Shown here: positions 5,139-36,913 of the stretch, one piece after another | How positions within the stretch are numbered: the stretch's first letter is position 1 | How the letters are laid out: each line of letters opens with the position of its first letter | Assembly (NCBI GenBank): GCA_003856375.1 | Contig: CP034120.1 | Coordinates: 3,281,501 to 3,345,500 of the forward strand | Length of the DNA: 64,000 nucleotides | Direction of reading: 5' to 3' | DNA from: Glaciecola amylolytica | GTDB taxonomy: Bacteria > Bacteroidota > Bacteroidia > Flavobacteriales_D > Crocinitomicaceae | The notes under the pieces: model-generated | Seen by the model: only the letters and a program-made list of their open reading frames with translations | Database searches by the model: none | What the model was told of the DNA's origin: nothing | Position numbers and translations under genes: made by a program

Positions 5139-6110
5139 TTACAACCATCTTGGATTTTTTGCTTTCGTTATTGGTATAATTGGAATATAACAAAACTTAA
5201 GCGCAATCTCGTGAGTACCATTCGAAATCTTTGATAATCTTCCGATTGTGATGTCATATGAGTAACCAACCCACATAAACATACGTGATTTTTGATTTTT
5301 AATATCAAACGGTCTGAACCCTAATAAAACGGAAACCGCATCACTATTTCTGAAAGCCAGACCTCCATAAAGGAATCCTTTGAAAATATATCGTGCGTTG
5401 ATGTTTGCTGAATACTTCTTCAAGTCAGTTTCCATCATTGCCTGAACGTCAATATTTCCCGGTCCGATATTTTCAAATGTGTAACCACCCATCACGTAGT
5501 AATGTCTCGCTAAATCGTAAGGAACAGTACCCGTACCTGAAGTATTCACAACTGAACTCGTTAAATTCAATGTAGATGCCTGCAAATGCGTGGATGACAA
5601 TCCTGCGTACCAATTCTGAGCACGGTAATAAATACCAAAGTTCACATCAAACGTAATTGCGCTACTCGCACCAGGGAAAGTAGGGTCAATTTGAGTTTGA
5701 GGACCAACCCATGTTGGATTCATACCAAAGTTTACCATTCCGACACCCAAACCAAGTCCCAATCTTCCGTTTCCTAACTGAAGGTGGTGGGAATAGTTCA
5801 ACATTACGTTGTTTTGTCTGTTAAACCCGATTGCATCGTGTGTAAAGTTCAATCCAAAACCACCGGTCCACTTTCCAAAGCTTTCCATGTTTGCCTCGGC
5901 ATTGAATACCACAGAATTCGGTGCTCCATTTACTTTATCCCACTGGTTGCGGTAAATTAAATTACCACACAATCCTTCCTCGATACCAGTAGCGCCCGGG
6001 TTAATGGCGAACTTATTGTAAATAAAATGTGTTAATGCGATATCTTGTTGAGCAGCAGCTCCAAAAGAACATAACACAAACGCTGATAAAATTCGTAACG
6101 TTTTATTCAT
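5139..6110 (-). CDS. PorP/SprF family type IX secretion outer-membrane barrel
   Basis: PorP/SprF proteins are outer-membrane beta-barrels that link the T9SS ring or surface adhesins to the envelope. The 323-residue product has a signal peptide (to AAAQQ near 21) and the family opening 'QQDIALTHFIYNKFAINPGATGI'. Amphipathic strands follow ('GRLGLGLGVGMVNFGMNPTW', 'GGYTFENIGPG'), with a late 'RMFMWVGYSYDITIGRLS'. Position immediately upstream of gldK matches the porP-porK-porL-porM-porN order of Porphyromonas gingivalis (from memory). The 189 nt upstream region is AT-rich and probably carries the operon promoter, but I found no exact TAnnTTTG there. Confidence 0.88.
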   Translation of the reverse strand: MNKTLRILSAFVLCSFGAAAQQDIALTHFIYNKFAINPGATGIEEGLCGNLIYRNQWDKVNGAPNSVVFNAEANMESFGKWTGGFGLNFTHDAIGFNRQNNVMLNYSHHLQLGNGRLGLGLGVGMVNFGMNPTWVGPQTQIDPTFPGASSAITFDVNFGIYYRAQNWYAGLSSTHLQASTLNLTSSVVNTSGTGTVPYDLARHYYVMGGYTFENIGPGNIDVQAMMETDLKKYSANINARYIFKGFLYGGLAFRNSDAVSVLLGFRPFDIKNQKSRMFMWVGYSYDITIGRLSKISNGTHEIALKFCYIPIIPITKAKNPRWL

Positions 6111-6299
6111 ATTTATGGGTCCTATTATGGTTTTAACGTGCTTGACTATTTAACAAATTTTAGCCAATTGGCGACTAAAATAAGTATTTTTTAGAACAAA
6201 CAAAATTTTTTAGTGCAATCAATTCATCTTTTCCACAATGAAATGTTGAAGAGATAAATATTTAACATAACTTCTTAATACGCAACAAGGAATAAAAGG

Positions 6300-7460
6300 T
6301 TACCCTAACTTCTGATAAGTTTTCCACCAAAGGTTCGGAATATCACCGTTCAAAGCATTGCTATACTGGATTTTATCGCATGGAACCATGTGGTGTCTTT
6401 CGTACTTAACTCCTTCTTTAGGAGGGTATGGAACCTCCATCCACCAACGTTCGGAACGGTTGCTTCGATAAAAAACAAGGTCGTGATTTATTTCATCCAA
6501 AAAGACGGTAAACTTGGTATAATCCTTTTTCGTTCCGATTGGAAAGTCTCCTACACGTTGAGAATATCCGTCCATAAAATACCAAATGATCTGACCGATT
6601 TCGGCATGAGCGCTTTCGGCAATATCTCCCGGAAGTAAATTAAACAAGCCTACAGAAGTCAATTTATCGGAGATTCCGGCATATTTAGCAATCTGACAAA
6701 CATCCTGATTGTCGAACCCGTTTGGTTGAGAGAAGTATTTTCCTTTAAAATCTGACGCTTTGATCGATTGCAGGTCAATACTCAACAAATCGGTGTTTCG
6801 CAGCAAGGGTTCCGCTATTCTGAAATCCCCTTTAAACTCTCCCAGACGGACAGCATCAAAAAACAACTTCTCAAACAAATCGATTTCCGAAGATTTGACC
6901 AAAGGTGTTTGATATCCGATTACCGAAAGATTGAATAAATAACAAGGTCTGTGCATTAAAAGCTTGCTCACATAGGCATCTTTTCCTATCGGAAGCTCCG
7001 GATCTCCCAGATCCAGTTTTGCATCAATATTCAGAACATTGATCAGCTGCTCCAACTCCTCATAGCCCTGATACATGGCGTAAGTCAAATCCTGCGTACC
7101 GCCCAAAACAACCGGAACAACCGATTTTTTGACCAATTCCGCAACAACTTGCCTCAAAGCAAAATAAGTATCTTCCACCCTTTCGCCGGGCATCAGATTT
7201 CCGAAATCATAGATTTTAAAGTTCCAGTTGCTTCCCGGAAAACAGGCATTCAGATAAGACCGGAAACGGTCGTCTGTTTCGCCATGAAGGCTTGATTCTC
7301 CATTTCTGAACTCAGGAACATATATCAACGCAATTCCCGGACGATCAATCTCCGGAAATCCCGACGAATCATCATTCCGCACAATAAATTCTCCCAACGA
7401 TTCTGAAACCGGGCTTTCTAGTGTACTGATTGGACTGAAATAAATAGAGATATCCTTCAT
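6300..7460 (-). CDS. arginase/formimidoylglutamase-fold protein with missing metal ligands
   Basis: The 386-residue product has the ureohydrolase (arginase/agmatinase/HutG) fold, but the signature metal motifs are altered. GGDHS is read as GGTQD in 'VVLGGTQDLTYA', DAHxD is DAKLD in 'LNIDAKLDLGD', and SxDxD is SIDLQ in 'DLLSIDLQSIK'. Three of six canonical Mn ligands (two His, one Asp) are therefore replaced, so hydrolysis of arginine or formimidoylglutamate is unlikely. A non-catalytic or changed role is inferred. The ATG at 7460 is preferred over an upstream TTG (7481) because a TATTTTTG -7 box overlaps that TTG. The gene lies between the T9SS operon and topA on the same strand. Confidence 0.75.
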   Translation of the reverse strand: MKDISIYFSPISTLESPVSESLGEFIVRNDDSSGFPEIDRPGIALIYVPEFRNGESSLHGETDDRFRSYLNACFPGSNWNFKIYDFGNLMPGERVEDTYFALRQVVAELVKKSVVPVVLGGTQDLTYAMYQGYEELEQLINVLNIDAKLDLGDPELPIGKDAYVSKLLMHRPCYLFNLSVIGYQTPLVKSSEIDLFEKLFFDAVRLGEFKGDFRIAEPLLRNTDLLSIDLQSIKASDFKGKYFSQPNGFDNQDVCQIAKYAGISDKLTSVGLFNLLPGDIAESAHAEIGQIIWYFMDGYSQRVGDFPIGTKKDYTKFTVFLDEINHDLVFYRSNRSERWWMEVPYPPKEGVKYERHHMVPCDKIQYSNALNGDIPNLWWKTYQKLG

Positions 7461-7478
7461 TCTGGCATGACTTTCCGA

Positions 7479-7486
7479 CAAAAATA
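7479..7486 (-). promoter_or_regulatory. -7 box for the arginase-like gene
   Basis: TATTTTTG on the minus strand, matching the Bacteroidota TAnnTTTG -7 element, 18 nt before the chosen ATG. No clear TTG -33 partner was found. The box decides the start by lying over the upstream TTG alternative. Confidence 0.45.
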
Positions 7487-7555
7487 CATGATTGAAGGAT
7501 GCTTATCCGGAAATTCGCAACGAAGAATAAAGACTCGAAAGTTAATAACTTAGAG

Positions 7556-7623
7556 AAAGTGAAAAGTGAGAAGGTAAAAGTAAAAAATGGTTCTCGCTTT
7601 TTTCACTTCTCACTTTTCATTTT
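7556..7623 (-). terminator. long inverted repeat closing topA
   Basis: Arms 7556-7573 and 7606-7623 form an 18-bp stem with one mismatch around a 32-nt loop. The right arm covers the topA stop codon. The arms are built of the GAAAAGTGAGAAG-type sequence found at several other gene ends in this window. It is a likely terminator for topA and also a member of the dispersed repeat family described in the findings. Confidence 0.5.
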
Positions 7624-10003
7624 ATTTCTTCTTCGCAGTTGTCTTTTTCGCAGGGGCTTTCTTTGCCGGAGCTTTTTTCGCTGCTGCTCCTCTGCCTCCC
7701 GGTTTTTTCTTAGGTGCATTCGCAGGATCGTTTGCAATTGCCAGACACTCTTCCAATGTCAGCGTTGCTGCTTCTGTTCCTTTCGGCAGTTTGAAATTGT
7801 CTTTTCCGATTTTCAGGTATGCTCCGTAACGCCCGTTCAACAACTGAACATCTTCACGTCCCGGAAAATCTTTGATCAATCTGTTAGCTTCCACTTCGCG
7901 TTTTTCCTGAATCAATTCAATCGCACGTTCCAGTGTTACAGTCATCGGATCGTCTTCTTTCTTCAGAGAAACAAATAGTTTTCCTAACTGAACATACGGT
8001 CCGAAACGACCAACATTCGCTTTCACATCCTGACCTTCAAATTCTCCGACTGAGCGTGGCAATTTGAACAATTCAAGCGCTTCCTCCAGCGTAATGGTAT
8101 GAATCGATTGATTTCCAAGAAGGGATGCAAAACGCGGTTTGTCTCCATCTTCTTTTTCATCTCCGATTTGGATCATTGGCCCAAAACGACCGATTCGTGC
8201 AATGACTTTTTTATTGGAAACCGGATCAATTCCCAACTCACGCTCACCTGTAGCGCGATCGGAATGTTCCAAAGTATCTTCTACATTGTGGTGGAACGGC
8301 TTGTAAAATGAACTCAACATTTCTGTCCACTCCATTTTTCCGCGTGCAATTTCATCGAATTGTTCTTCCACTTCTGCCGTGAAATGATAATCCATGATTC
8401 CACCGAAATGATCCACCAGGAAATCCGTTACAACCATTCCGATATCTGTCGGGAACAACTTGTTTTTTTCTTTTCCGGTAATTTCCTTTTTGATCTGCTT
8501 ATCGATTGCAGAACCTTTCAATTCCAACACCTGATAAGCTCTTTCTTCCCCTTCGCGTTCTTGTTTCTCAACATAACCACGCTTTTGGATCGTTGAAATC
8601 GTTGGTGCATACGTTGAAGGTCTTCCGATTCCCAGTTCTTCCAGTTTCTTCACCAAAGATGCTTCTACGTATCGTGCTGCCGGTCTGGTGAATCGCTCTG
8701 TTGCACGAATAAAATCGCGGTTCAATGATTCTCCGACCTGAACTGCAGGCAACAATCCTTCCGCTTCGCTGTCTTCTTCTTCATCCAGGTTTGTTTCCAG
8801 ATAAACTTTCAGGAATCCGTCAAATTTGATCACCTCTCCTTTTGCCTGGAACACTTCCGCCAATTTGGAATCTCCGATCGAGATCGTAGTTCTTTCCAAT
8901 TCAGCATGGCTCATCTGAGAAGCAATTGAACGTTTCCAGATCAAATCATACAAACGCACTTCATCACGTTCTCCGCTTGACAAAGCATGCATTGCAAAAT
9001 TTGTCGGGCGGATCGCTTCGTGAGCTTCCTGTGCATTCGAACTTTTGTTGGTATATTTTGCCGGATGCGAGTATTCTTTTCCGTAAGCTGAAAAGATCTC
9101 ATTTTTCGCTCCTTCCATAGCCGTTTCCGATAAATTCACGGAATCGGTACGCATATAGGTGATATGTCCTGCTTCGTATAATTTTTGGGCAACCTGCATG
9201 GTTCTTGAAACCGAAAAACCAAGTTTCAAAGATGCTTCCTGCTGGAGGGTTGATGTGGTAAACGGAGAAGCCGGGGTTTTCTTTGCCGGTTTCTGCTGAA
9301 CGTCCAACACTTTGAAATCAACATTCGAACAGTTTTCCAAAAACGAATTGACTTCGGTATCCGTTCCGAAATGTTTTGAAACTTCTGCCTTGATGCGTTC
9401 TTTTCCTTTCAAAAACTCTCCTGTAACGCGGAAATAGCTTTCGGCCTGAAATTGCTGAATCTCTTTTTCACGCTCTACAATCAAACGCACAGCAACCGAT
9501 TGCACACGTCCTGCAGACAAACTTGGTCTTACTTTTTTCCATAAAACCGGAGAAAGTTCGAAACCAACCAGACGATCCAAAACACGTCTTGCCTGCTGTG
9601 CATCAACCAATGGTTTGTTAATCTGACGCGGATTTTCAATCGCTTTTAAAATCGCTCCTTTGGTGATTTCGTTGAAAGTGATTCGTTTCGTGTCTTTTTT
9701 GGCCAAGCCTAAAGTCTCGTACAAGTGCCACGAAATTGCTTCTCCCTCCCGGTCCTCATCGGTAGCGAGCCAAACCACTTCTGATTCCTTTGCCAATTTC
9801 TTCAATTCCGCAACCAGTGCTTTCTTGTCCGAGCTGACCTCGTATTCCGGGGCGAAATTGTTTTCGATGTCTATGGCCAATCCTTTCGACGCCAAATCGC
9901 GCACATGTCCAAAACTTGATTTTACAGTAAAGTCTTTTCCTAAATATCCTTCAATGGTTTTTGCCTTTGCAGGTGACTCAACTATTACTAAATTCTTGCT
10001 CAT
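7622..10003 (-). CDS. topA: DNA topoisomerase I (type IA)
   Basis: TopA relaxes negative supercoils by cutting one strand through an active-site tyrosine. The 793-residue product begins MSKNLVIVESPAKAKTIEGY (Toprim domain, with 'WLATDEDREGEAISWH' near 83-98). It has the active-site region 'ITYMRTDSVNLSE' near 282-294 and 'GIGRPSTYAPTISTIQKRGY' near 465. The C-terminal part has several 'GRFGPYVQLG / GRYGAYLKIG' topoisomerase C-terminal repeats. The last 30 residues are a Lys/Ala/Pro tail of the kind that binds DNA non-specifically. The ATG at 10003 is chosen over an in-frame start at 10075 because a good promoter lies at 10044-10076 and the family N-terminus starts here. Confidence 0.97.
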   Translation of the reverse strand: MSKNLVIVESPAKAKTIEGYLGKDFTVKSSFGHVRDLASKGLAIDIENNFAPEYEVSSDKKALVAELKKLAKESEVVWLATDEDREGEAISWHLYETLGLAKKDTKRITFNEITKGAILKAIENPRQINKPLVDAQQARRVLDRLVGFELSPVLWKKVRPSLSAGRVQSVAVRLIVEREKEIQQFQAESYFRVTGEFLKGKERIKAEVSKHFGTDTEVNSFLENCSNVDFKVLDVQQKPAKKTPASPFTTSTLQQEASLKLGFSVSRTMQVAQKLYEAGHITYMRTDSVNLSETAMEGAKNEIFSAYGKEYSHPAKYTNKSSNAQEAHEAIRPTNFAMHALSSGERDEVRLYDLIWKRSIASQMSHAELERTTISIGDSKLAEVFQAKGEVIKFDGFLKVYLETNLDEEEDSEAEGLLPAVQVGESLNRDFIRATERFTRPAARYVEASLVKKLEELGIGRPSTYAPTISTIQKRGYVEKQEREGEERAYQVLELKGSAIDKQIKKEITGKEKNKLFPTDIGMVVTDFLVDHFGGIMDYHFTAEVEEQFDEIARGKMEWTEMLSSFYKPFHHNVEDTLEHSDRATGERELGIDPVSNKKVIARIGRFGPMIQIGDEKEDGDKPRFASLLGNQSIHTITLEEALELFKLPRSVGEFEGQDVKANVGRFGPYVQLGKLFVSLKKEDDPMTVTLERAIELIQEKREVEANRLIKDFPGREDVQLLNGRYGAYLKIGKDNFKLPKGTEAATLTLEECLAIANDPANAPKKKPGGRGAAAKKAPAKKAPAKKTTAKKK

Positions 10004-10043
10004 GCTAACTAATTTTTGCGGATCGAAACGATTCGAATCGGTG

Positions 10044-10076
10044 CAAATATAAATGGATTTAAAAACAAAAAACAAA
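10044..10076 (-). promoter_or_regulatory. promoter of topA
   Basis: Minus strand: -7 box TATATTTG (10044-10051) and -33 TTTG (10073-10076) separated by 21 nt, giving a leader of roughly 35 nt. It fits the Bacteroidota promoter form. Confidence 0.6.
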
Positions 10077-10202
10077 CGATTCAGAATTGAAAAGAATTGA
10101 ATTCCCTATTTAAACTATAGTTTAGATTTTTTTTAGATCCAATATTTCATTCAAAAAAACAGCTTTCTTTCTAAAAAATTAACAAGGATAAGGCCATGAC
10201 AT

Positions 10203-10233
10203 TTTGACATGTCTGTCATAAAAACTATTTTTG
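10203..10233 (+). promoter_or_regulatory. promoter of the miaB operon with operator-like dyad
   Basis: -33 TTTG (10203-10206), 19-nt spacer, -7 TATTTTTG (10226-10233), then ATG at 10252. This is one of the cleanest promoters in the window. A dyad overlaps the -33 box: ATGACA at 10196-10201 pairs with TGTCAT at 10214-10219, and GACATGTC at 10206-10213 is itself palindromic. That looks like a repressor or activator site. Confidence 0.65.
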
Positions 10234-10251
10234 CACTCTTAAAATTCAAGC

Positions 10252-11691
10252 ATGCTAGAGAATCACGGTTTAAATAAAGTAATAGACGAGAGCAGACAGG
10301 GAGAAGCTATCATTTTAGAAGGTGGAACCGGCTCCAAAAAACTTTACGTGGAAAGTTACGGTTGTCAAATGAATTTCAGTGATAGTGAAGTCGTCGCGTC
10401 CATTATGACGAAAGAAGGCTATACAACCACTCGAAACATCGACGAAGCAGATGTTGTTCTGATCAATACCTGTTCCATCCGGGAGAATGCTGAAACACGC
10501 GTTCGCAATCGTTTGACGGAATTCAAAAAGCGCAAAGCGGATCAGCCCAACTTAGTGGTTGGAATTTTAGGCTGTATGGCTGAACGTTTGAAACAAGCCT
10601 TGCTGGAAGAAGAACAATTGGTTGATTTAGTAGCCGGACCGGATGCTTACCGAGATCTTCCAAACTTAATAGACGAAGTCGGAACAGGTCAGCGTGCGGT
10701 AAACGTATTGCTTTCCCGTGAAGAAACATATGCAGATATTTCCCCTGTGAGAATGGATCAGGGCGGAGTAAGTGCTTTTGTAACCATTACCCGCGGCTGC
10801 GACAACATGTGTTCGTTCTGTGTGGTTCCGTTTACAAGAGGACGTGAGCGTTCCAGAGATCCGAGAACCATCGTTCAGGAATGTAAAGATTTGTTCGCAA
10901 ACGGATACCGTGAAGTCACTTTATTGGGACAAAACGTAGATAGTTACCGCTGGAACATGAGCAGCAAAGGAGTGATTAAAGATGAATCCATTCCGACAAC
11001 AAACTTTGCGCAATTGATGGAGATGGTCGCTTTGATCAATCCGGATTTACGCATTCGTTTCTCTACTTCCCATCCGAAAGACATGACGGATGACGTATTG
11101 GAAGTGATGGCGAAATATGAAAACATTTGTCCGTACATCCACTTACCGGTTCAATCCGGGAATTCAAATGTATTGGAGCGCATGAACAGAGGCTATTCCC
11201 GCGAATGGTATCTGGATCGTATTGCAGCAATCAAACGCATTATTCCTGATTGTGCTATTTCAACAGATATTATTACCGGTTTTTGCGGTGAAACAGACGA
11301 AGAACACAATGAAACTGTTTCCCTGATGAAAGACGTTGCTTATGATTTCGCTTACATGTTCAAGTATTCGGAAAGACCAAAAACATTGGCAGAGCGTAAA
11401 TTTACAGACGATATTCCGGAAGATGTAAAAGGCCGTCGATTAGAGGAAATCATCGCCTTGCAATTGGAAAATTCTGCTGCTTCTCACAAAAGACAAGTCG
11501 GAAAGATTGCCAAAGTATTGGTTGAAGGGCCTTCAAAACGTTCACAGGAACATTTCTGCGGAAGAGACGGAAGAAACTCGATGGTGGTTTTCCCGAAAGG
11601 AAATGCAAAGAAAGGTGATTATGTGATGGTAAAAATCACGGATTGCACTTCTGCGACTTTGATCGGTGAATTGGTTACTCACGCAAATTAA
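10252..11691 (+). CDS. miaB: tRNA-2-methylthio-N6-dimethylallyladenosine synthase
   Basis: MiaB adds the 2-methylthio group to i6A37 of tRNAs reading UNN codons, using two [4Fe-4S] clusters and SAM. The 479-residue protein shows the UPF0004 cysteines (C38 in 'ESYGCQMN', C74 in 'NTCSIREN', C108 in 'GILGCMAE') and the radical-SAM triplet C183-x3-C187-x2-C190 ('[10 protein letters not shown]'). A TRAM domain is at the end ('[20 protein letters not shown]'). About 28 residues precede the usual N-terminus. It is the first gene of a run with the sigma54-type regulator 9 nt behind it. Confidence 0.96.
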
Positions 11692-30500: not shown

Positions 30501-31058
30501 TTAATCAATTTTTATATTCAAACAGAAAAAACTATTCACATCATTAATAGGTAAAATCTGATACTCCAGTTTATTTCCTGATTTTCTTGCAATATCAATC
30601 ATTCCAAGACCTGCTGTTCCCTTATCAGATAAGGTTCCGTTACTCAGCACATCCTGATAATACTTTTTCAACTCGTCTTTATCCATTCCATTGATCTTTT
30701 CCAGACGCGCTTCCAAATCCAGTGCGCTTTCGTTATCAATGTAATTTCCTGTTCGAATAACGAAATGATCGTCCTTCTTTGCGATCATGAACAAAGCTGA
30801 TTTCGCCTCAATCCGTGTCATGTTTCTGTCATTGTCGTCACTTGAATCTATGTGATGATACAAATTTTGCAAACATTCTACAAGTACATTGAAAACCTTT
30901 TTTTTCAGCTTTGGAGATTCATCCATGTAATCCATTTTAGATTCCATGATTGAAAGAACGGAAGACAACAGGTCTGACGTAACCACCCCCTTAAATGACA
31001 ACAAGATATTCTCTCGCTCCATTGTTTGGTATAGTTCGTAGATGTCGTTCTTTATCAT
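30501..31058 (-). CDS. SiaB-like protein kinase
   Basis: A 185-residue kinase of the GHKL/HPK-like group that phosphorylates SiaC. Visible features: helix-rich N-terminus with 'ENILLSFKGVVTSDLLSSVL', 'NVLVECLQNLYHHID' (N-box-like Glu/Asn), and the glycine loop 'GTLSDKGTAGLGMIDIARKS'. The pair resembles the anti-sigma-factor kinase/antagonist partner switch. No SiaA-type PP2C phosphatase or GGDEF protein is in the window. Confidence 0.82.
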   Translation of the reverse strand: MIKNDIYELYQTMERENILLSFKGVVTSDLLSSVLSIMESKMDYMDESPKLKKKVFNVLVECLQNLYHHIDSSDDNDRNMTRIEAKSALFMIAKKDDHFVIRTGNYIDNESALDLEARLEKINGMDKDELKKYYQDVLSNGTLSDKGTAGLGMIDIARKSGNKLEYQILPINDVNSFFCLNIKID

Positions 31059-31220: not shown

Positions 31221-31243
31221 CTTTTGCAACAATGATGCATTTA
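31221..31243 (+). repeat. direct repeat, left copy (identical to 36159-36181)
   Basis: All 23 bases are identical to 36159-36181, which spans the end of the -7 box and first codons of the methyltransferase gene. The two copies are in the same orientation, 4938 bp apart, and flank the four-gene operon. Confidence 0.85.
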
Positions 31244-31297
31244 CAAGAATGTAAAGAAGGAATTCTCGATCTGATTTGTTTCTGTAAGTACTCATGA
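31232..31297 (+). pseudogene. truncated 5' copy of the 36170 methyltransferase gene
   Basis: From ATG ATG at 31232 the frame reads MMHLQECKEGILDLICF and meets TGA at 31295. The intact methyltransferase begins MMHLEEQKEWFSTWFNS. After the 23 identical bases, similarity continues for about 40 nt at a lower level (TCGA.CTG.TTT..TTC shared) with one apparent 1-nt indel. This is best read as a remnant of a duplicated gene; that reading is inference from about 65 bases. Confidence 0.65.
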
Positions 31298-31345
31298 AAG
31301 GGTAATTTCCCATGTATGGCACATTTCGCCCTATTGGTTGTTTAT

Positions 31346-31395
31346 CTTACTTTTTTCATTGCCAAAAAAGTAAGCAAAAAGGCCAGGCCTGTACT
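31346..31395. repeat. CTTACTTTTTT inverted repeat element
   Basis: CTTACTTTTTT (31346-31356) and AAAAAAGTAAG (31364-31374) form an 11-bp perfect stem with a 7-nt loop, followed by CAAAAAGGCCAGGCCTG. I recall similar intergenic sequence in other Bacteroidota, where it creates spurious frames reading KKVSKKA. Dispersal is not shown in this window. Confidence 0.35.
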
Positions 31396-31705
31396 CGAAA
31401 GCTTGAAAAGCTACGCTTCATTTCGCTATTTCACCCCAACTCGTATACGTTGTTACCGAATTTTGTCTTACAAAATCCGACAACTGAACTCAAACAGGGG
31501 TTCAATCACGCTACTTTCAGCTTGTTTTCTGCACTTTCAGCATAATGGCCATTTTAGAACTACTTTCTTAAAGATCATTCTTCTTTCAAACCAGAAAAAC
31601 AACAGGTTATATTGTTTAACAGGAAATCTCCCTTGAAAGATTCGATCAGAAGATGGATTCTTTTTGTAAGAATCTTGATTTCAGTACTTTTAAATGACTC
31701 TAGAA

Positions 31706-32881
31706 TTAATTCCTGAAATCAATAATCGGCGGCGTTTTGGAAGTTGTCGGGTTGATATACAAAGCTTCTTCGCTTACCATTTCCACTTCAATGGCTGCAA
31801 ACTTCGGATCCGATTCAATGATGTGTTTGATTCCTTGTTCAATACGCTGAATCATTTTTTCTTTCTCTGGCAGCGATCCCTGTGATTTCACCAGCAAAAA
31901 ACGCAATTCGGTGAGTAAATCTGTTTTGAGGGATAATTGGATCTGGAAACAATCGACATCCTGTAATAAGGATTCGAAATCGTGCAAAAAATAAGCGCTT
32001 TCATGAAGAGAGAAAGACTTTTGCTCGCGTTCTTTCAGCAGCAAGACCATTCTTCCGTTTTCCTCAACCAACTTACCCACATCTCCCATGCGATAGCGAA
32101 ACAAAGGAAAACGTTTTCGGATCAGGTTAGTCACCACCATTTCGCCATATCCTTCCGAATCGGGATTGAAAATTTCGATTACCACTTCTTTCAGAAAATG
32201 AAACGCTCTCGGGTTTTGAGAATAATGCGCCCAGCCCCAGATTCCCGTTTCGGTTGAACCATACATGGAATAAATAGCTTTGGGTTGAAATACCTGCAAA
32301 AGAATTTCCCGTTGCGACGGAAGCAAAAATTCTCCTCCAAACAAAATAGTATCAAAAACACAGGTTATTCCCTCTTTTTGGAGGAACTTGGCAAACAAAA
32401 CCAATTTGGAAGGTGTTCCCATGAGCATATTCGCCTGAAATTCGATACTCGTTGCAGCCATGGTTTCATAAGTAGCATTTGCACTCAAAGCCAAGGTCGT
32501 TGCTGAACATCTGTCCAGAATATCATCCAAAATGGAAGCCGTACGATACATTTCGCCGTAGCTGAAGATATTCAACGCAATCGTGCGTGAAGAAATGATT
32601 CCGCTTGCAACCAGTTCGTTTGCCAATAATTGACGTTGCGCCAGATTTTCCTGAATATCTACCGGAAATACCAAAGGCTTTTGTGTCGACCCACCTGAAC
32701 GCACGAGGTAAACTCCTTTTTCTTCGTCCTGTAATTTGAATCTGGCGGCCAATGTTTCTCGCAGCACCTGCTTGTCCATTACCGGCGCCGATGAAAAATC
32801 GTCTATATCATCGTAATAACCATTCCACAAAACGGATGCTTTGACGTGTTGAAAATGTTCTTTTAAACCTGTTACACTCAT
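31706..32881 (-). CDS. PaaK/CapK-like adenylate-forming enzyme
   Basis: A 391-residue member of the ANL superfamily near phenylacetate-CoA ligase/CapK. ANL enzymes activate carboxylic acids as acyl-AMP. Visible motifs: phosphate loop 'RSGGSTQKPLVF' (61-72), 'LFGGEFLLPSQRE' near 180, adenine motif 'YGSTETG' (207-213), and 'RYRMGDVGKL' (262-271) with the ribose-binding Asp. The C-terminal domain is short, as in PaaK. The substrate is unknown. It is the last gene of the tight minus-strand operon, 2 nt behind the glycosyltransferase. Confidence 0.8.
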   Translation of the reverse strand: MSVTGLKEHFQHVKASVLWNGYYDDIDDFSSAPVMDKQVLRETLAARFKLQDEEKGVYLVRSGGSTQKPLVFPVDIQENLAQRQLLANELVASGIISSRTIALNIFSYGEMYRTASILDDILDRCSATTLALSANATYETMAATSIEFQANMLMGTPSKLVLFAKFLQKEGITCVFDTILFGGEFLLPSQREILLQVFQPKAIYSMYGSTETGIWGWAHYSQNPRAFHFLKEVVIEIFNPDSEGYGEMVVTNLIRKRFPLFRYRMGDVGKLVEENGRMVLLLKEREQKSFSLHESAYFLHDFESLLQDVDCFQIQLSLKTDLLTELRFLLVKSQGSLPEKEKMIQRIEQGIKHIIESDPKFAAIEVEMVSEEALYINPTTSKTPPIIDFRN

Positions 32882-32883
32882 CT

Positions 32884-33819
32884 TTATACTGTTTTAACGC
32901 GGGTTTTGCTCAAAAAGAAGTAATACAACTGACGCGGAAACAATCCGGCGTAACTGACAATGAAGCGGATTTTCTGCTTCCGGGAACTCAAATTTCCGAA
33001 CGAATGCGCAATCCAACGTGCCCCCACTACTCCCATGAGTAATTTATCATAGTGGTCCGTGCTGTTTTTGTAGCGAACCAAAACCGGAGGAAGCGTTAAC
33101 TCTTTGCAGCTATGGTATTTTTTCCGGGATAAGCTTCCGTCCACTTCCCGCACATGCAAGTGATTTCCCATCAGCATCCCGACTTTTGAATCCGGATTAC
33201 TCAACACAACTTTCAATACTCTGTACCAAAAATCAATTCCTTCATAAAAACGCGCCTTTTCATCAAACTGAATGCTTTCCATCCACTTTCGTTTGGCAAT
33301 AACATTGCTTCCCACTCCCATCACAAAATGACGTGAAGTAACGGTTCTCAGCGGATGTTTCATGAGGTAAGCATCTGTTCCCACTTCCTGCAAATCGGGA
33401 ACTATTCTCCTGAAATCCGGATAACGAATGCCGCTTGGAAACAATTGAATTCCGAGTACCACGAAATCCATTTCCTGAACTTCCATCAATTGCGCAGCTC
33501 TTTGAATGAGTTCCGGAGCATACACATCATCGGCATCAATAAAGCTGATGATGTCTCCACTTGTTTTGGAAAAACCCAAATTGCGGGCATAACTCACACC
33601 GCGGTTTTCTTCCGATGCCACTATTTCGACACGTACATTCTTGAAACGCTCAGGAACTTCCTGCAAAAAACGGGTTGCCAGTTCCAAACTTCCGTCCGTA
33701 CTTTTATCATCTACAAGGATGAGTTCATATGGCAATACCGTTTGATCAACAATTGATTGCAATGTTTCACAAACATAAGGCGCTTTGTTGTGCAAGGGAA
33801 TGACAATGGAAAATTTCAT
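32884..33819 (-). CDS. family 2 glycosyltransferase
   Basis: A GT-A-fold transferase of 311 residues using a nucleotide sugar. 'MKFSIVIPLHNKAPYVCETL' opens the fold, followed by 'LVDDKSTDGS' (35-44), 'ENRGVSYARNLGFSKTSGD' and the metal motif 'FIDADD' (93-98). No membrane helix is evident. The ATG at 33819 fits the fold; a longer frame would run into the upstream gene. It is 1 nt downstream of the ATP-grasp-like gene stop. Acceptor unknown; within this operon it may glycosylate the product made by its neighbours. Confidence 0.9.
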   Translation of the reverse strand: MKFSIVIPLHNKAPYVCETLQSIVDQTVLPYELILVDDKSTDGSLELATRFLQEVPERFKNVRVEIVASEENRGVSYARNLGFSKTSGDIISFIDADDVYAPELIQRAAQLMEVQEMDFVVLGIQLFPSGIRYPDFRRIVPDLQEVGTDAYLMKHPLRTVTSRHFVMGVGSNVIAKRKWMESIQFDEKARFYEGIDFWYRVLKVVLSNPDSKVGMLMGNHLHVREVDGSLSRKKYHSCKELTLPPVLVRYKNSTDHYDKLLMGVVGARWIAHSFGNLSSRKQKIRFIVSYAGLFPRQLYYFFLSKTRVKTV

Positions 33820-33820
33820 C

Positions 33821-35086
33821 TTATCCGTTTTTTTCAACTGCACAGGGCAAAAACACTCCGCGTCCCTCATACATATTGATTACTTTTTCGGTCGATCCGC
33901 GAAAGATTCCGGGGCCATAACACTGTGCGTCTTTGCACAAAAGCAATCCTACGACGTTGATTTGTTGTTTTTTGTGTTCGTAGAAAAAATCAAAAAACTC
34001 CTGGTCAATATATTCCTGTACCATGTAATGTTGCCATTCTTCAGTAACGACACGGTTCCACTCTTCCGACGTGCAGTCATTTTTGACATACATCCCGATT
34101 CCTCTTCCTCCGCTGTTGTTTTTCAAGACCCAGTTTTCTGTCGAATCGATAATTTCTGCCCGTTTCTCTTCGGTGTCTACAATGAAAGACGAAATCAGAA
34201 AGGGCTTTAGAAAATCATAATCTGCCTCAGAAAGGTAATCGCGCATGATTTCCTCGTTGCACAATACCGCCAAAACGCGCTTGTCGTGAATCAAAATCAA
34301 GGAACGCACATCATTGATACATCTTTCCGATGCAATCAGACCTTTCAGCACAGAAGCATCAATCCGTTTCAATTCTTCGCGATCCATTTCGAGAATAAAC
34401 TGTTGCGCCAGTCGTTCTCCAACAAACAAGAAACCCGCTTCCGTATGTAAATCAGCAGAGGTAATGGATTCGGCCAAAATATTGCGATTTTTCAATTCGT
34501 GAAACAGGTAATTGACTTCAGTTCCCTTTTCCAGATCATGAATCCAAAACAACGGTTCTGCCGGATCAAGAGTTTGCACGTAATCATCCAGAAAACCGTT
34601 CAAACCCGCAACCGGAGACCAATTGTCGTGAACTGCCGGAATCAGTTTTGTCACAATCTCATTGGCATAATAACTGAACATCCAGCCATTGAACGGGTAA
34701 CGGCAGCCGATTTCACAGATTTTCTTTTGTCCTGTGGCATCAATGACAAAATCGGGACGATACATCCCGACTTTGTACGGATAGTCATGTGCCTGTTCTA
34801 AAATCGCTTCCAGTCCGGAATCCAATTGATAAATGTCGCGAATGCGCTGATCTGAAAAATAATGCTGAACGATCTGAATGAATGCCCGATTCAGAATTTC
34901 AGTCAAGTGCTGAGATTCCTGTAAATCGCTTTCCTTTACCAAAACCGGTAAATTGGAAATGCTGTAGGGCAATTCTCCCAAAAATTGCTGCAGCTGAAAA
35001 TTTATCTGAGCCTGGTCCATTCCTTTCGTGGAAAGCCCGATTCCCCGCTGCTGCAATTCGGTTTGTTCCGCTTCGTTCATCCTCAT
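33821..35086 (-). CDS. ATP-grasp-like ligase (possibly circularly permuted type)
   Basis: A 421-residue protein. 'PDFVIDATGQKKICEIGCR' (111-129) places acidic metal-type residues in the middle, and 'WVLKNNSGGRGIGMYV' (319-334) looks like the ATP-grasp glycine loop with its lysine. 'YMVQEYIDQEFF' (354-365) looks like the hinge. The order and spacing resemble circularly permuted ATP-grasp enzymes such as glutathionylspermidine-synthetase-like ligases, which join a carboxylate to an amine. Assignment is by motif only. Its start overlaps the upstream gene as ATGA, so translation is coupled. Confidence 0.6.
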   Translation of the reverse strand: MRMNEAEQTELQQRGIGLSTKGMDQAQINFQLQQFLGELPYSISNLPVLVKESDLQESQHLTEILNRAFIQIVQHYFSDQRIRDIYQLDSGLEAILEQAHDYPYKVGMYRPDFVIDATGQKKICEIGCRYPFNGWMFSYYANEIVTKLIPAVHDNWSPVAGLNGFLDDYVQTLDPAEPLFWIHDLEKGTEVNYLFHELKNRNILAESITSADLHTEAGFLFVGERLAQQFILEMDREELKRIDASVLKGLIASERCINDVRSLILIHDKRVLAVLCNEEIMRDYLSEADYDFLKPFLISSFIVDTEEKRAEIIDSTENWVLKNNSGGRGIGMYVKNDCTSEEWNRVVTEEWQHYMVQEYIDQEFFDFFYEHKKQQINVVGLLLCKDAQCYGPGIFRGSTEKVINMYEGRGVFLPCAVEKNG

Positions 35087-35907
35087 TGCAACATTGCTCC
35101 TGACTGTACCAATTGATGATTCAGCGTACTCATCACTTCTGCTTTCAAAGTCAGGTATATCGTGATGATTTCCTGCAAATCGTAATCTTCAATAGACAAA
35201 CCGGTTGCTTTCGCAAAAGAATGAACCGCATCTACCGCATGGAAGAAGTGATTCTTTTCAGTTGGTCCGCAATGCACGGCAATCCACGCCAAAGAAAGAT
35301 TGATATCCTGCTCCGACAAATCGCTGTTTGCTTTCAACCAGTTTTCAAAGAGCGGCAAAATAAATTCCACTTCTCCGTGTGTATAAATTTCGTGCACCAA
35401 AGTGGTCAATAAACCAATCATAATGTCCTTATTGCGCAAGGAGTTTTTGTCTTTCCACGCTTTGAATTCTTTGGCTTCCACGCACAAATAACGATGCGAC
35501 AACCAACTGTCATCTCCGCTGATATTTGTCGCCATGCGGTAAAACAAAACGGAATGCAAAATCTGACCAACTACCGCCAAATCTTCGTCCACAATGCGAT
35601 TCAAGCTGGCAACCGCTTTGAATAAATCGTGCTCGCTCTGCACCGGCTGATTTTCGTGTACCAACATCGTCATGCGGTTGCTCAGTCCCGCAACGGTTAC
35701 TGCACTGTTGTTCGTTTGACTCCAACTGTGAAAAAATGATCTCAGGGTTTCCGGATCTTGTTTGGCAGCAGTTAAGGCACGAAACGTGTCTTCAATGATT
35801 GAAAATTTTTCTTCCTGTAATGGGAAGTACGCTAAGAGTTGTTGTTTAATGTGTGACTCATTCATGTCTGAGATCACCGGCATTACAATTGAACTTAATT
35901 TGTTCAT
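35083..35907 (-). CDS. haem-oxygenase-like diiron oxidase/TenA-like candidate
   Basis: A 274-residue all-helical protein, first gene of the operon. 'VHEIYTHGEVEFILPLFENW' (171-190) resembles the ExxxxG...LF helix of HDO enzymes (UndA, CADD-like), and 'VHCGPTEKNHFFHAVDAV' (211-228) resembles the HxxxE/DxxH metal helix. Not all expected ligands are clear, so it could be a non-metal TenA-like relative. The ATG at 35907 was chosen; internal ATGs at 35883 and 35865 are possible. The longer frame to 36129 passes through the promoter and has no protein-like sequence. Confidence 0.5.
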   Translation of the reverse strand: MNKLSSIVMPVISDMNESHIKQQLLAYFPLQEEKFSIIEDTFRALTAAKQDPETLRSFFHSWSQTNNSAVTVAGLSNRMTMLVHENQPVQSEHDLFKAVASLNRIVDEDLAVVGQILHSVLFYRMATNISGDDSWLSHRYLCVEAKEFKAWKDKNSLRNKDIMIGLLTTLVHEIYTHGEVEFILPLFENWLKANSDLSEQDINLSLAWIAVHCGPTEKNHFFHAVDAVHSFAKATGLSIEDYDLQEIITIYLTLKAEVMSTLNHQLVQSGAMLQ

Positions 35908-36040
35908 ACTAGAGGTTTTAGTGAATAGTAAAATATCTGAGCCTTGGTCCACAACACCAGAAAAATAAATAACCATTGGAACAATCCGAACGAAGCAACT
36001 TATTAAGCAAGCGGTGGTTATACGACAAGAACTCGTGAAA

Positions 36041-36070
36041 CAAAAATAGACTAATTCTGATACCATGCAA
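36041..36070 (-). promoter_or_regulatory. promoter of the four-gene operon
   Basis: Minus strand: TTG (36068-36070), 19-nt spacer, TATTTTTG (36041-36048). It leaves a leader of about 125 nt before the ATG at 35907, long for this window. ATAACC and GGTTAT segments in the leader can pair, so leader control is conceivable. Confidence 0.6.
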
Positions 36071-36156
36071 TACCGCGAAATAAAACTTCGCCCAGTAATA
36101 ACGGGCTTTTCCGAAGGAATTTGAAACAATCTTCAACCTGTTTGACAAAAAAGAGT

Positions 36157-36164
36157 TACTTTTG
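36157..36164 (+). promoter_or_regulatory. -7 box for the methyltransferase gene
   Basis: TACTTTTG ends only 5 nt before the ATG at 36170, so the message would be nearly leaderless. A TTTG at 36141-36144 is too close (12 nt) to be a normal -33 element. Confidence 0.45.
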
Positions 36165-36181
36165 CAACAATGATGCATTTA
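36159..36181 (+). repeat. direct repeat, right copy
   Basis: Identical over 23 bases to 31221-31243. It includes the end of the -7 box and the first four codons of the methyltransferase. Confidence 0.85.
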
Positions 36182-36913
36182 GAAGAGCAAAAGGAGTGGT
36201 TTTCGACCTGGTTTAATTCACCTTACTACCATCTATTGTATGATGAAAGAGACGATCAGGAAGCAAATGAATTTCTGAATAACCTGGTTTCAGCATTGAA
36301 GCCTGAGCAGGGATCCAGTGTTCTGGATCTGGCTTGTGGAGCCGGAAGACATTCCAGAGCTTTGGCGGCTCACGGTTTGAAGGTTTCGGGCTGTGATCTT
36401 TCGCCCAACAGCATTGAAGAAGCTAAAAGAAATTCGGATTCCGACTTGACTTTTTTCGTACACGACATGCGCGAACCTCTTCAGGAGCAATATCAATACG
36501 TTTTCAATTTGTTTACCAGTTTCGGATATTTCGACGACACGCGTCAAAATGCTCTGGTATTGAAAAGTGTTCACGATGCGTTGACCGATCCGGCAATGCT
36601 GGTGATCGATTTCATGAATACGCACAAGGTTATTCGTGACTTACGCTTCCGGCAAGAGATCAAAAAACACGGAATCCTGTTTCACATCAAAAAAGAAGTG
36701 AGCAACGGACGAATTGTGAAAACAATTGCATTTGAAGATCAGGGAACTTCCTATTTCTTTCAGGAAAAAGTACAGGCACTTTACCTCTCTGATTTCGAAG
36801 AATTACTGACCGAAGCAAATTTCGACATTGTGCGCTTTGCCGGAAACTATCAATTGGACGCTTTCGACAGTGAAACATCTGATCGTCTGATCCTAATTTG
36901 TAAAAAGAAATGA
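36170..36913 (+). CDS. class I SAM-dependent methyltransferase
   Basis: A 247-residue Rossmann-fold methyltransferase. Motif I 'SSVLDLACGAGRHSRALAAH' (44-63), 'VSGCDLSPNSIEEAKRN' (motif II), then 'FNLFTSFGYFDDTRQN' and a beta-rich C-terminal part ('FQEKVQALYLSDFEELL'). The arrangement resembles the small-molecule/UbiE-like type; substrate unknown. It overlaps the ZIP transporter start by 4 nt. Its 5' end exists a second time at 31221-31297. Confidence 0.88.
   Translation: MMHLEEQKEWFSTWFNSPYYHLLYDERDDQEANEFLNNLVSALKPEQGSSVLDLACGAGRHSRALAAHGLKVSGCDLSPNSIEEAKRNSDSDLTFFVHDMREPLQEQYQYVFNLFTSFGYFDDTRQNALVLKSVHDALTDPAMLVIDFMNTHKVIRDLRFRQEIKKHGILFHIKKEVSNGRIVKTIAFEDQGTSYFFQEKVQALYLSDFEELLTEANFDIVRFAGNYQLDAFDSETSDRLILICKKK

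Follow-up and report, generated by a model that had tools for sequence, protein, structure and literature searches.

Do four adjacent genes on the chromosome of Glaciecola amylolytica form a small biosynthetic pathway of their own, or are they neighbors by accident? The genes lie in a stretch of 64,000 nucleotides (contig CP034120.1, positions 3,281,501 to 3,345,500; hereafter the window), part of a 4.6-Mb single-contig genome, and all four are on the minus strand. Gene 1 (positions 35083 to 35907 of the window, 274 amino acids) encodes a protein with the fold of the heme-oxygenase-like dimetal oxidases and oxygenases (HDOs), probably an enzyme of that kind; gene 2 (33821 to 35086, 421 amino acids) encodes an ATP-grasp ligase resembling Cp1B; gene 3 (32884 to 33819, 311 amino acids) encodes a family 2 glycosyltransferase (GT2); and gene 4 (31706 to 32881, 391 amino acids) encodes a short PaaK-like adenylate-forming (ANL) ligase. 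An earlier reading of the letters alone, the sequence-only reading, had described the genes as running from 35907 to 31706 with a 4-nucleotide overlap, a 1-nucleotide gap and a 2-nucleotide gap, and these coordinates and junctions are correct. We consider it rather probable that the genes are a self-contained, dispersed cassette for a small glycosylated amide, a pseudo-di- or tripeptide, assembled without a nonribosomal peptide synthetase (NRPS) or polyketide synthase (PKS). The sequence-only reading had suggested such an amide or glycosylated metabolite, and from the enzyme families and their co-occurrence it is the reading that we would regard as best supported.

Co-occurrence of the four families in other genomes had been set beforehand as a test, and its absence can be ruled out. 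When a contig collection was scanned with seven aligned HDOs, 50 loci were found, of which 45 carry all four genes, collinear and on one strand; the scan depends on two short motifs, so that HDOs below about 51% identity lie beyond its reach. For this count, GT2 matches before position 8000 in loci longer than 16 kb were excluded to avoid upstream GT2 copies. Of the remaining five loci, L023 and L060 are cut off at contig ends, L028 has no GT2, and in L067 and L069 none of the other three genes lies within 8 kb of the HDO. The Bacteroidota are represented by Flavobacterium, Pedobacter, Mucilaginibacter, Tenacibaculum and others. Outside that phylum, loci were found in Chromobacterium, Lysobacterales metagenome-assembled genomes (MAGs), Sphingomonas, Azospirillum and Nitrospirillum, so that the proteobacterial loci span the Alpha-, Beta- and Gammaproteobacteria, as well as in one Eremiobacterota MAG and one unnamed bacterial MAG. 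Median intergenic gaps across loci are 4, 0 and 4 nucleotides (n = 48, 43 and 42). Pairwise distances of the four genes correlate with r from 0.952 to 0.980 over 43 taxa, a comparison that left out eight loci, namely the five incomplete ones and L061 to L063, in which the GT2 had been read beyond its natural gene end. As judged from these sequences, the pattern shows that the four genes have been kept together, by descent or by transfer, and the spread of the cassette would have been horizontal. An ordinary operon, in which four unrelated genes came to be co-transcribed by chance in one strain, would fit the distribution of gene 2 close to home, where it was found in none of the other 58 of the 59 relatives searched. 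Against this stand the agreeing gene histories and the fact that 45 of 50 distant loci retain the set with order and strand unchanged; we regard the chance operon as refuted and give it next to no probability.

Gene 2 was found in 4 of 395 genomes of the phylum, the window's own included, and gene 1 in 6 of 199 Flavobacterium genomes, all six with the four genes in order. A scan of the contig collection with gene 2 returned no loci. The HDO relatives that stand alone in the two Nitrospirillum loci are about 52% identical to that of the window, and the strain with L067 also holds a full cassette (L070).

The family assignments of the sequence-only reading were borne out for all four proteins. 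The alignments used for conservation (A3 to A6) hold 38 of 50, 31 of 48, 22 of 46 and 19 of 43 locus sequences, each with the window's own added. The AlphaFold2 model of gene 1 is confident (mean predicted local distance difference test [pLDDT] score, 92.2), and its Foldseek matches include the TenA homologue 3oql, CADD-like 3b5o, BesC, UndA, PolF and HrmI at a probability of 1.00; the first 24 rows all have that probability, with query TM-scores (TMq) of 0.54 to 0.68. On this model the protein is predicted to be a heme-oxygenase-like helical bundle of the HDO superfamily. Seven residues, E108, H118, E173, H177, H212, E217 and H220, are invariant in 53 of 53 sequences, these being the window's, those of the 50 loci and two outliers at 27 to 28% identity. 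Candidate metal ligands E108, H118, E173, H212, E217 and H220 among them would give the expected composition of an HDO site, three histidines and three acids, as described for MboA in the portion of the source available (PMC13185094), and make a dimetal oxidase or oxygenase the probable function. Gene 1 matches no Pfam family above its cut-off and no NCBIfam model, and comparison with PDB sequences gave two chance-level matches only; part of the interest of this HDO subfamily is that it has neither a Pfam or NCBIfam name nor a solved relative detectable by sequence.

Gene 2 is related in both sequence and fold to Cp1B (9cjn), which was reached by phmmer at 9.7e-13, by a profile at 2e-34 over two collinear stretches, and by Foldseek with the AlphaFold2 model (pLDDT 91.6) at an E value of 6.4e-24 and a TMq of 0.79, with glutathione synthetases ranking next. 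The models and their Foldseek matches together rule out a wrong assignment of the HDO-fold or ATP-grasp protein. In the account consulted in part, Cp1B couples epoxysuccinate to an amino acid, making the first amide bond of E-64, and its acid-site residues R139, D141, E163 and N165 were mutated (PMC12568646). When aligned with an inferred offset of 15 between chain and paper numbering, the first three correspond to R110, D112 and E125 of gene 2, which are invariant, and gene 2 likely keeps Cp1B-type chemistry with a different acid.

Gene 3 matches PF00535 at 8.4e-33 (114.1 bits against a cut-off of 23.3) and GT2 structures in the PDB, and its DxD-type residues D95, D97 and D98 are invariant in 20 of 20 sequences. 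Gene 4 is more divergent from named families. It matches the DVU_1553/PaaK models of NCBIfam below their cut-off and the AMP-binding family of Pfam at 20.1 bits, under the cut-off of 29.9, and it falls outside phenylacetate-CoA ligase PaaK proper (TIGR02155), with 43.5 bits against a cut-off of 646.3. Its profile reaches PDB entry 9s3l at 1.2e-18, together with PaaK-type profile matches, and R61, S62, G64, S65, G208, E211, Y263, G266, D267, R285 and K382 are invariant in 23 of 23 sequences. These residues we take to be the adenylation core motifs, and with the profile matches they identify gene 4 as a putative short PaaK-like ANL enzyme.

From these families we infer substrates, step order, metal binding, product and role, with E-64 (oxygenase, ATP-grasp, ANL) and mangotoxin (HDO and ATP-grasp ligases) as models. 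At a dimetal site, the HDO would oxidize an amino acid or else an acid or peptide derived from one. The Cp1B-like ATP-grasp enzyme would then phosphorylate a carboxylate and condense it with an amino acid or amine, and the short PaaK-like ANL enzyme would adenylate a second carboxylate, acting either as an amide synthetase or as a coenzyme A (CoA) ligase; the bonds formed by the two ligases would be amides or thioesters. The GT2 would add a sugar, and this would be the most separable step; the GT2 is missing from L028 and stands alone elsewhere, so that its step is probably late or separable.

Several observations weigh against a dedicated pathway for a small glycosylated amide, or against parts of it. 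The Foldseek similarity of gene 1 to HDOs is moderate (best E value, 5.9e-4, with only two matches at or below 1e-3), and its profile finds no match among PDB sequences. In gene 2 the fourth Cp1B acid-site residue, N165, is replaced by G127, a glycine invariant in 32 of 32 sequences, so that three of the four are kept; the acid substrate therefore probably differs, and for this reason we call the enzyme Cp1B-like and not an E-64 ligase. The agreement of gene distances is also expected under vertical descent, and the count of 45 in 50 is conditional, since only HDOs with the two motifs and at least 51% identity were found by the scan. Relatives of single genes also occur apart from the set: one phylum genome (G436) has a 28% relative of gene 2 without gene 1 in the fetched stretch; two relatives within the genus (G009 and G011, in L011 at 5691 to 11355 and in L012) have an HDO relative at about 28% identity in a different cluster; and on a plasmid of Azospirillum sp. 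B510 (L130, 5352 to 10064) a 30% HDO relative lies in another setting, near two methyltransferases, a GntR regulator and a major facilitator superfamily (MFS) transporter. The cassette itself holds no transporter, regulator or resistance gene. Finally, the peptide system beside the cassette in Flavobacterium, described below, could mean that the substrate is a peptide.

The glycosyltransferase is also the starting point for another explanation, in which the four genes modify a glycan or lipid of the cell surface and no diffusible metabolite is made. As a GT2, gene 3 is generic, and enzymes of exopolysaccharide and teichuronic type are among its weak matches. The surroundings of the cassette speak against this: outside Flavobacterium no neighbor is widely common, each flanking family occurring in at most 4 of the 27 loci compared (27 of the 50), and hence no polysaccharide or export gene is a regular neighbor. 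An HDO together with a Cp1B-like ligase, moreover, suits soluble small-molecule chemistry, and we think surface decoration quite improbable.

A further association was seen in Flavobacterium. In 15 of the 50 loci, all from that genus, genes for DUF1843 peptides, a TIGR03913-like maturase and a DOT1-like methyltransferase lie directly upstream of the cassette, resembling a system for ribosomally synthesized and post-translationally modified peptides (RiPPs). Each of these loci has two or three short DUF1843 peptides with the GDL motif, one of which scores 49.6 bits against a cut-off of 23.3. The "GDL motif" radical S-adenosylmethionine (SAM)/SPASM maturase of locus L008 scores 533.7 bits with TIGR03913, below the cut-off of 591.75. 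In L030 (5283 to 5728) and other Flavobacterium loci, the GDL peptides lie directly upstream of the radical SAM maturase. Such an arrangement raises the possibility that the cassette serves to tailor a ribosomal peptide, the product being a modified peptide or a peptide-derived cofactor. Consistent with this, among the 199 Flavobacterium genomes the HDO occurs in six and the maturase, at 89% identity or above, in six, with both in five, an overlap with a probability of 1.4e-8 if the genomes were independent, which they are not; a weaker radical SAM match of some kind was found in 97 of the 199. Of 29 genomes checked for the maturase, 9 gave a match of at least 500 bits, and all of these belong to the 26 genomes to which cassette loci had led; in a sample across the Bacteroidota the corresponding figure is 2 of 395, and both are cassette carriers. 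One Flavobacterium genome (G454) has retained the peptides, the maturase and the GT2 and lost the rest.

The same survey tells against an obligatory link. The G. amylolytica genome has no such maturase (best match, E value of 1.8e-7) and no DUF1843 peptide, so the GDL-peptide system was rejected for this genome. Since the maturase is also missing from 20 of the 29 genomes in all, the link is optional. One Flavobacterium (L022/L052) has the four genes without the maturase. The maturase check used 26 of the 50 loci, among them just two (L030 and L034) of the 15 where a maturase adjoins the cassette. Six of the nine maturase-positive genomes are Proteobacteria, while the background rate was measured only in Bacteroidota, and the link outside Flavobacterium is for that reason only suggestive; of the 15 locus-derived Bacteroidota only 3 have the maturase, two of them chosen in knowledge of the adjacency. 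Of 20 genomes (those of 19 of the 50 loci plus the window's own), 4 have DUF1843 peptides, and a search of 61 stretches found none near the cassette outside Flavobacterium. In Chromobacterium, DUF1842, DUF1843 and maturase genes are up-regulated with quorum sensing and are functionally uncharacterized according to the part of the report consulted (PMC12114271). Taken together, we judge the peptide-tailoring explanation unlikely, though it deserves more weight than surface decoration. A related and similarly doubtful version combines the two chemistries in an uncharacterized natural-product family of wide distribution: an oxidized, HDO-made warhead would pass to the Cp1B-like ligase and PaaK-like synthetase and receive a sugar, and in Flavobacterium and some other bacteria this would be coupled to GDL (DUF1843) peptides and the maturase. 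The product there would be a hybrid of small molecule and RiPP, conceivably a cofactor derived from a peptide and glycosylated. Whichever holds, the Flavobacterium arrangement offers a direct route to asking what the GDL/DUF1843 peptide system is for.

For the preferred small glycosylated amide, the closest precedents are pathways that join a similar oxidase or a similar ligase. BesC, which is among the fold matches of gene 1, acts with BesA in the propargylglycine pathway, where an HDO and an ATP-grasp enzyme work with a halogenase and a pyridoxal phosphate (PLP) lyase. The E-64 clusters of Aspergillus (cp1/cp2), as far as the available portion of the source describes them, have a similar four-gene, NRPS-free logic of oxygenase, Cp1B-type ATP-grasp ligase and ANL enzyme (PMC12568646). 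Their oxygenase, however, is an Fe/alpha-ketoglutarate epoxysuccinate synthase, whereas that of the cassette has the HDO fold, and they include a PLP decarboxylase, which is absent from the four genes and places the cassette outside the E-64 type; the cassette adds a GT2, has a short PaaK-like ANL enzyme and differs at the N165 position. The mangotoxin cluster mboABCDEF likewise uses an HDO and ATP-grasp ligases to make a small peptide without an NRPS (PMC13185094). It has two ATP-grasp ligases, a redox partner and a deiminase, and a GT2 and an ANL enzyme are not among the parts described in the sections consulted; the ligand spacing of MboA (E86, H89, E143, H172, D176 and H181) is, by eye, unlike that proposed for gene 1. 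A further comparable system, the GDL-motif/DUF1843 radical SAM system (TIGR03913), adjoins the cassette only as described above for Flavobacterium.

The sequence-only reading had named this operon its best candidate for an undescribed pathway, and that judgment stands in part. No literature on the four-gene set was found in a search that most subscription papers lay outside. Clusters combining an HDO with an ATP-grasp ligase, on the other hand, are already a recognized class: a 2026 survey, seen in part, finds 1447 HDOs in the neighborhood of an ATP-grasp ligase, distinguishes at least 25 unique clusters, and reports that other HDOs in such positions modify amino acids or peptides (PMC13185094). 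The cassette, with its HDO clustered with an ATP-grasp ligase, has the property by which the survey selected, and may be among the clusters that it lists. What sets it apart for further work is its compactness, four enzymes in about 4.2 kb that could be reconstituted outright. If the reading is right, Cp1B-type amide chemistry extends to a bacterial cassette found across several phyla.

How did the cassette arrive at this site? A class I methyltransferase gene on the plus strand (36170 to 36913; Pfam methyltransferase domains) flanks it on one side and lies outside it, as a conserved chromosomal neighbor found in 14 of 14 genomes of the genus. On the far side lies a DUF6272 gene on the minus strand (30501 to 31058; PF19788, 147.1 bits), also outside the cassette. 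In 9 of 13 relatives (G001 to G004, G006 to G008, G012 and G013) the site is empty, with the methyltransferase about 172 to 191 bp from the start of the DUF6272 gene, against 5111 bp here; the stretches fetched for G005 and G010 contain no DUF6272 gene. The flanking direct repeats that the sequence-only reading had noted are real: two 28-bp copies on the plus strand, 31221 to 31248 and 36159 to 36186, identical at 27 of 28 positions and 4938 bp apart from start to start. The right copy is at the start of the intact methyltransferase gene, and the left is a decayed duplicate of the 5' end of that gene, the similarity continuing beyond the 28 bp. Alignment of seven empty sites with both junctions identified the left copy as the old, decayed methyltransferase start and the right as the working one, and the cassette therefore entered the site with a duplicated gene start.

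Several other origins and functions were considered for the insert and rejected. The repeats are not the ends of a mobile element, since they are a duplicated gene start and no integrase was seen: no integrase, transposase or relaxase was recognized in positions 31249 to 36158, which hold the four genes and, outside them, one open reading frame (ORF) of 106 amino acids (the Pfam scan covered these five, every other listed ORF of the stretch overlapping one of the four genes). Foreign base composition was dropped as an argument, since the insert, at 42.0% G+C, lies inside the 39.1 to 43.0% that 4.9-kb segments span here, although at third codon positions the HDO gene, with a G+C of 0.498, is above the mean of 0.414 (standard deviation, 0.044; 52 ORFs of at least 150 amino acids). 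Carriage by plasmid or phage was likewise discarded: gene 2 had no match in plasmid and phage collections, and gene 1 had only relatives of 28 to 30% identity on two plasmids and none in phages. None of the four genes matched a known or candidate phage-defense protein in PADLOC.

In the two remaining relatives, G009 and G011, the same site holds a single GT2 that is 47 to 48% identical to gene 3 and nests in the tree of cassette GT2s beside the window's copy (support, 0.742), within a wider clade with L024 and L025 (support, 0.999). P0003-type GT2s occur in 3 of the 14 genus genomes, exactly those with a P0001-family HDO, which is weak statistics because G009 and G011 are closely related. Among the 58 relatives searched, only this pair has a relative of gene 1 (27 to 29% identity), which lies elsewhere in the genome in the different cluster mentioned above. 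Its neighbors are a two-domain ANL enzyme, a member of the Asp/Glu racemase family, a Cys/Met PLP enzyme and, on weak evidence, a possible ATP-grasp protein; comparison of the third enzyme of these clusters with gene 2 gave a probability of 3%, too low to establish a relation. In the Flavobacterium genome G454 (L105, 7483 to 10550), the GDL peptides and maturase are accompanied by a cassette-type GT2 that is 75% identical to that of L008 and directly preceded by what is left of an ATP-grasp gene, its final 25 codons (72% identical); gene 1 is absent from the genome, and no PaaK-like gene was found in the 18-kb stretch. The lone GT2s look like remnants of cassettes that decay in places and leave the GT2 behind.

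Of the "good promoter" claimed by the sequence-only reading at 36041 to 36070, the site itself is present on the minus strand as a possible operon start. It is a match to TTG-N19-TAnnTTTG, which we take to be a promoter consensus, and the pattern is no better than chance, with 2 occurrences in the window against 1.34 expected and at least 2 in 39 of 100 shuffles. The roughly 460 bp between the left repeat and gene 4 (31249 to 31705) are low in G+C (35.9%); the 106-amino-acid ORF lies here (31316 to 31636, plus strand) and matches no Pfam family. In three Flavobacterium loci (L041, L042 and L048) a second GT2 lies between the methyltransferase and the HDO, at about 6770 to 7740. A distant Cp1B-like ligase, at 27 to 28% identity, was seen in another Bacteroidota genome (L010, 2454 to 8927), where its neighbors are a PhyH-type oxygenase, an aminotransferase, a short-chain dehydrogenase/reductase (SDR) and a ketosynthase III-type gene.

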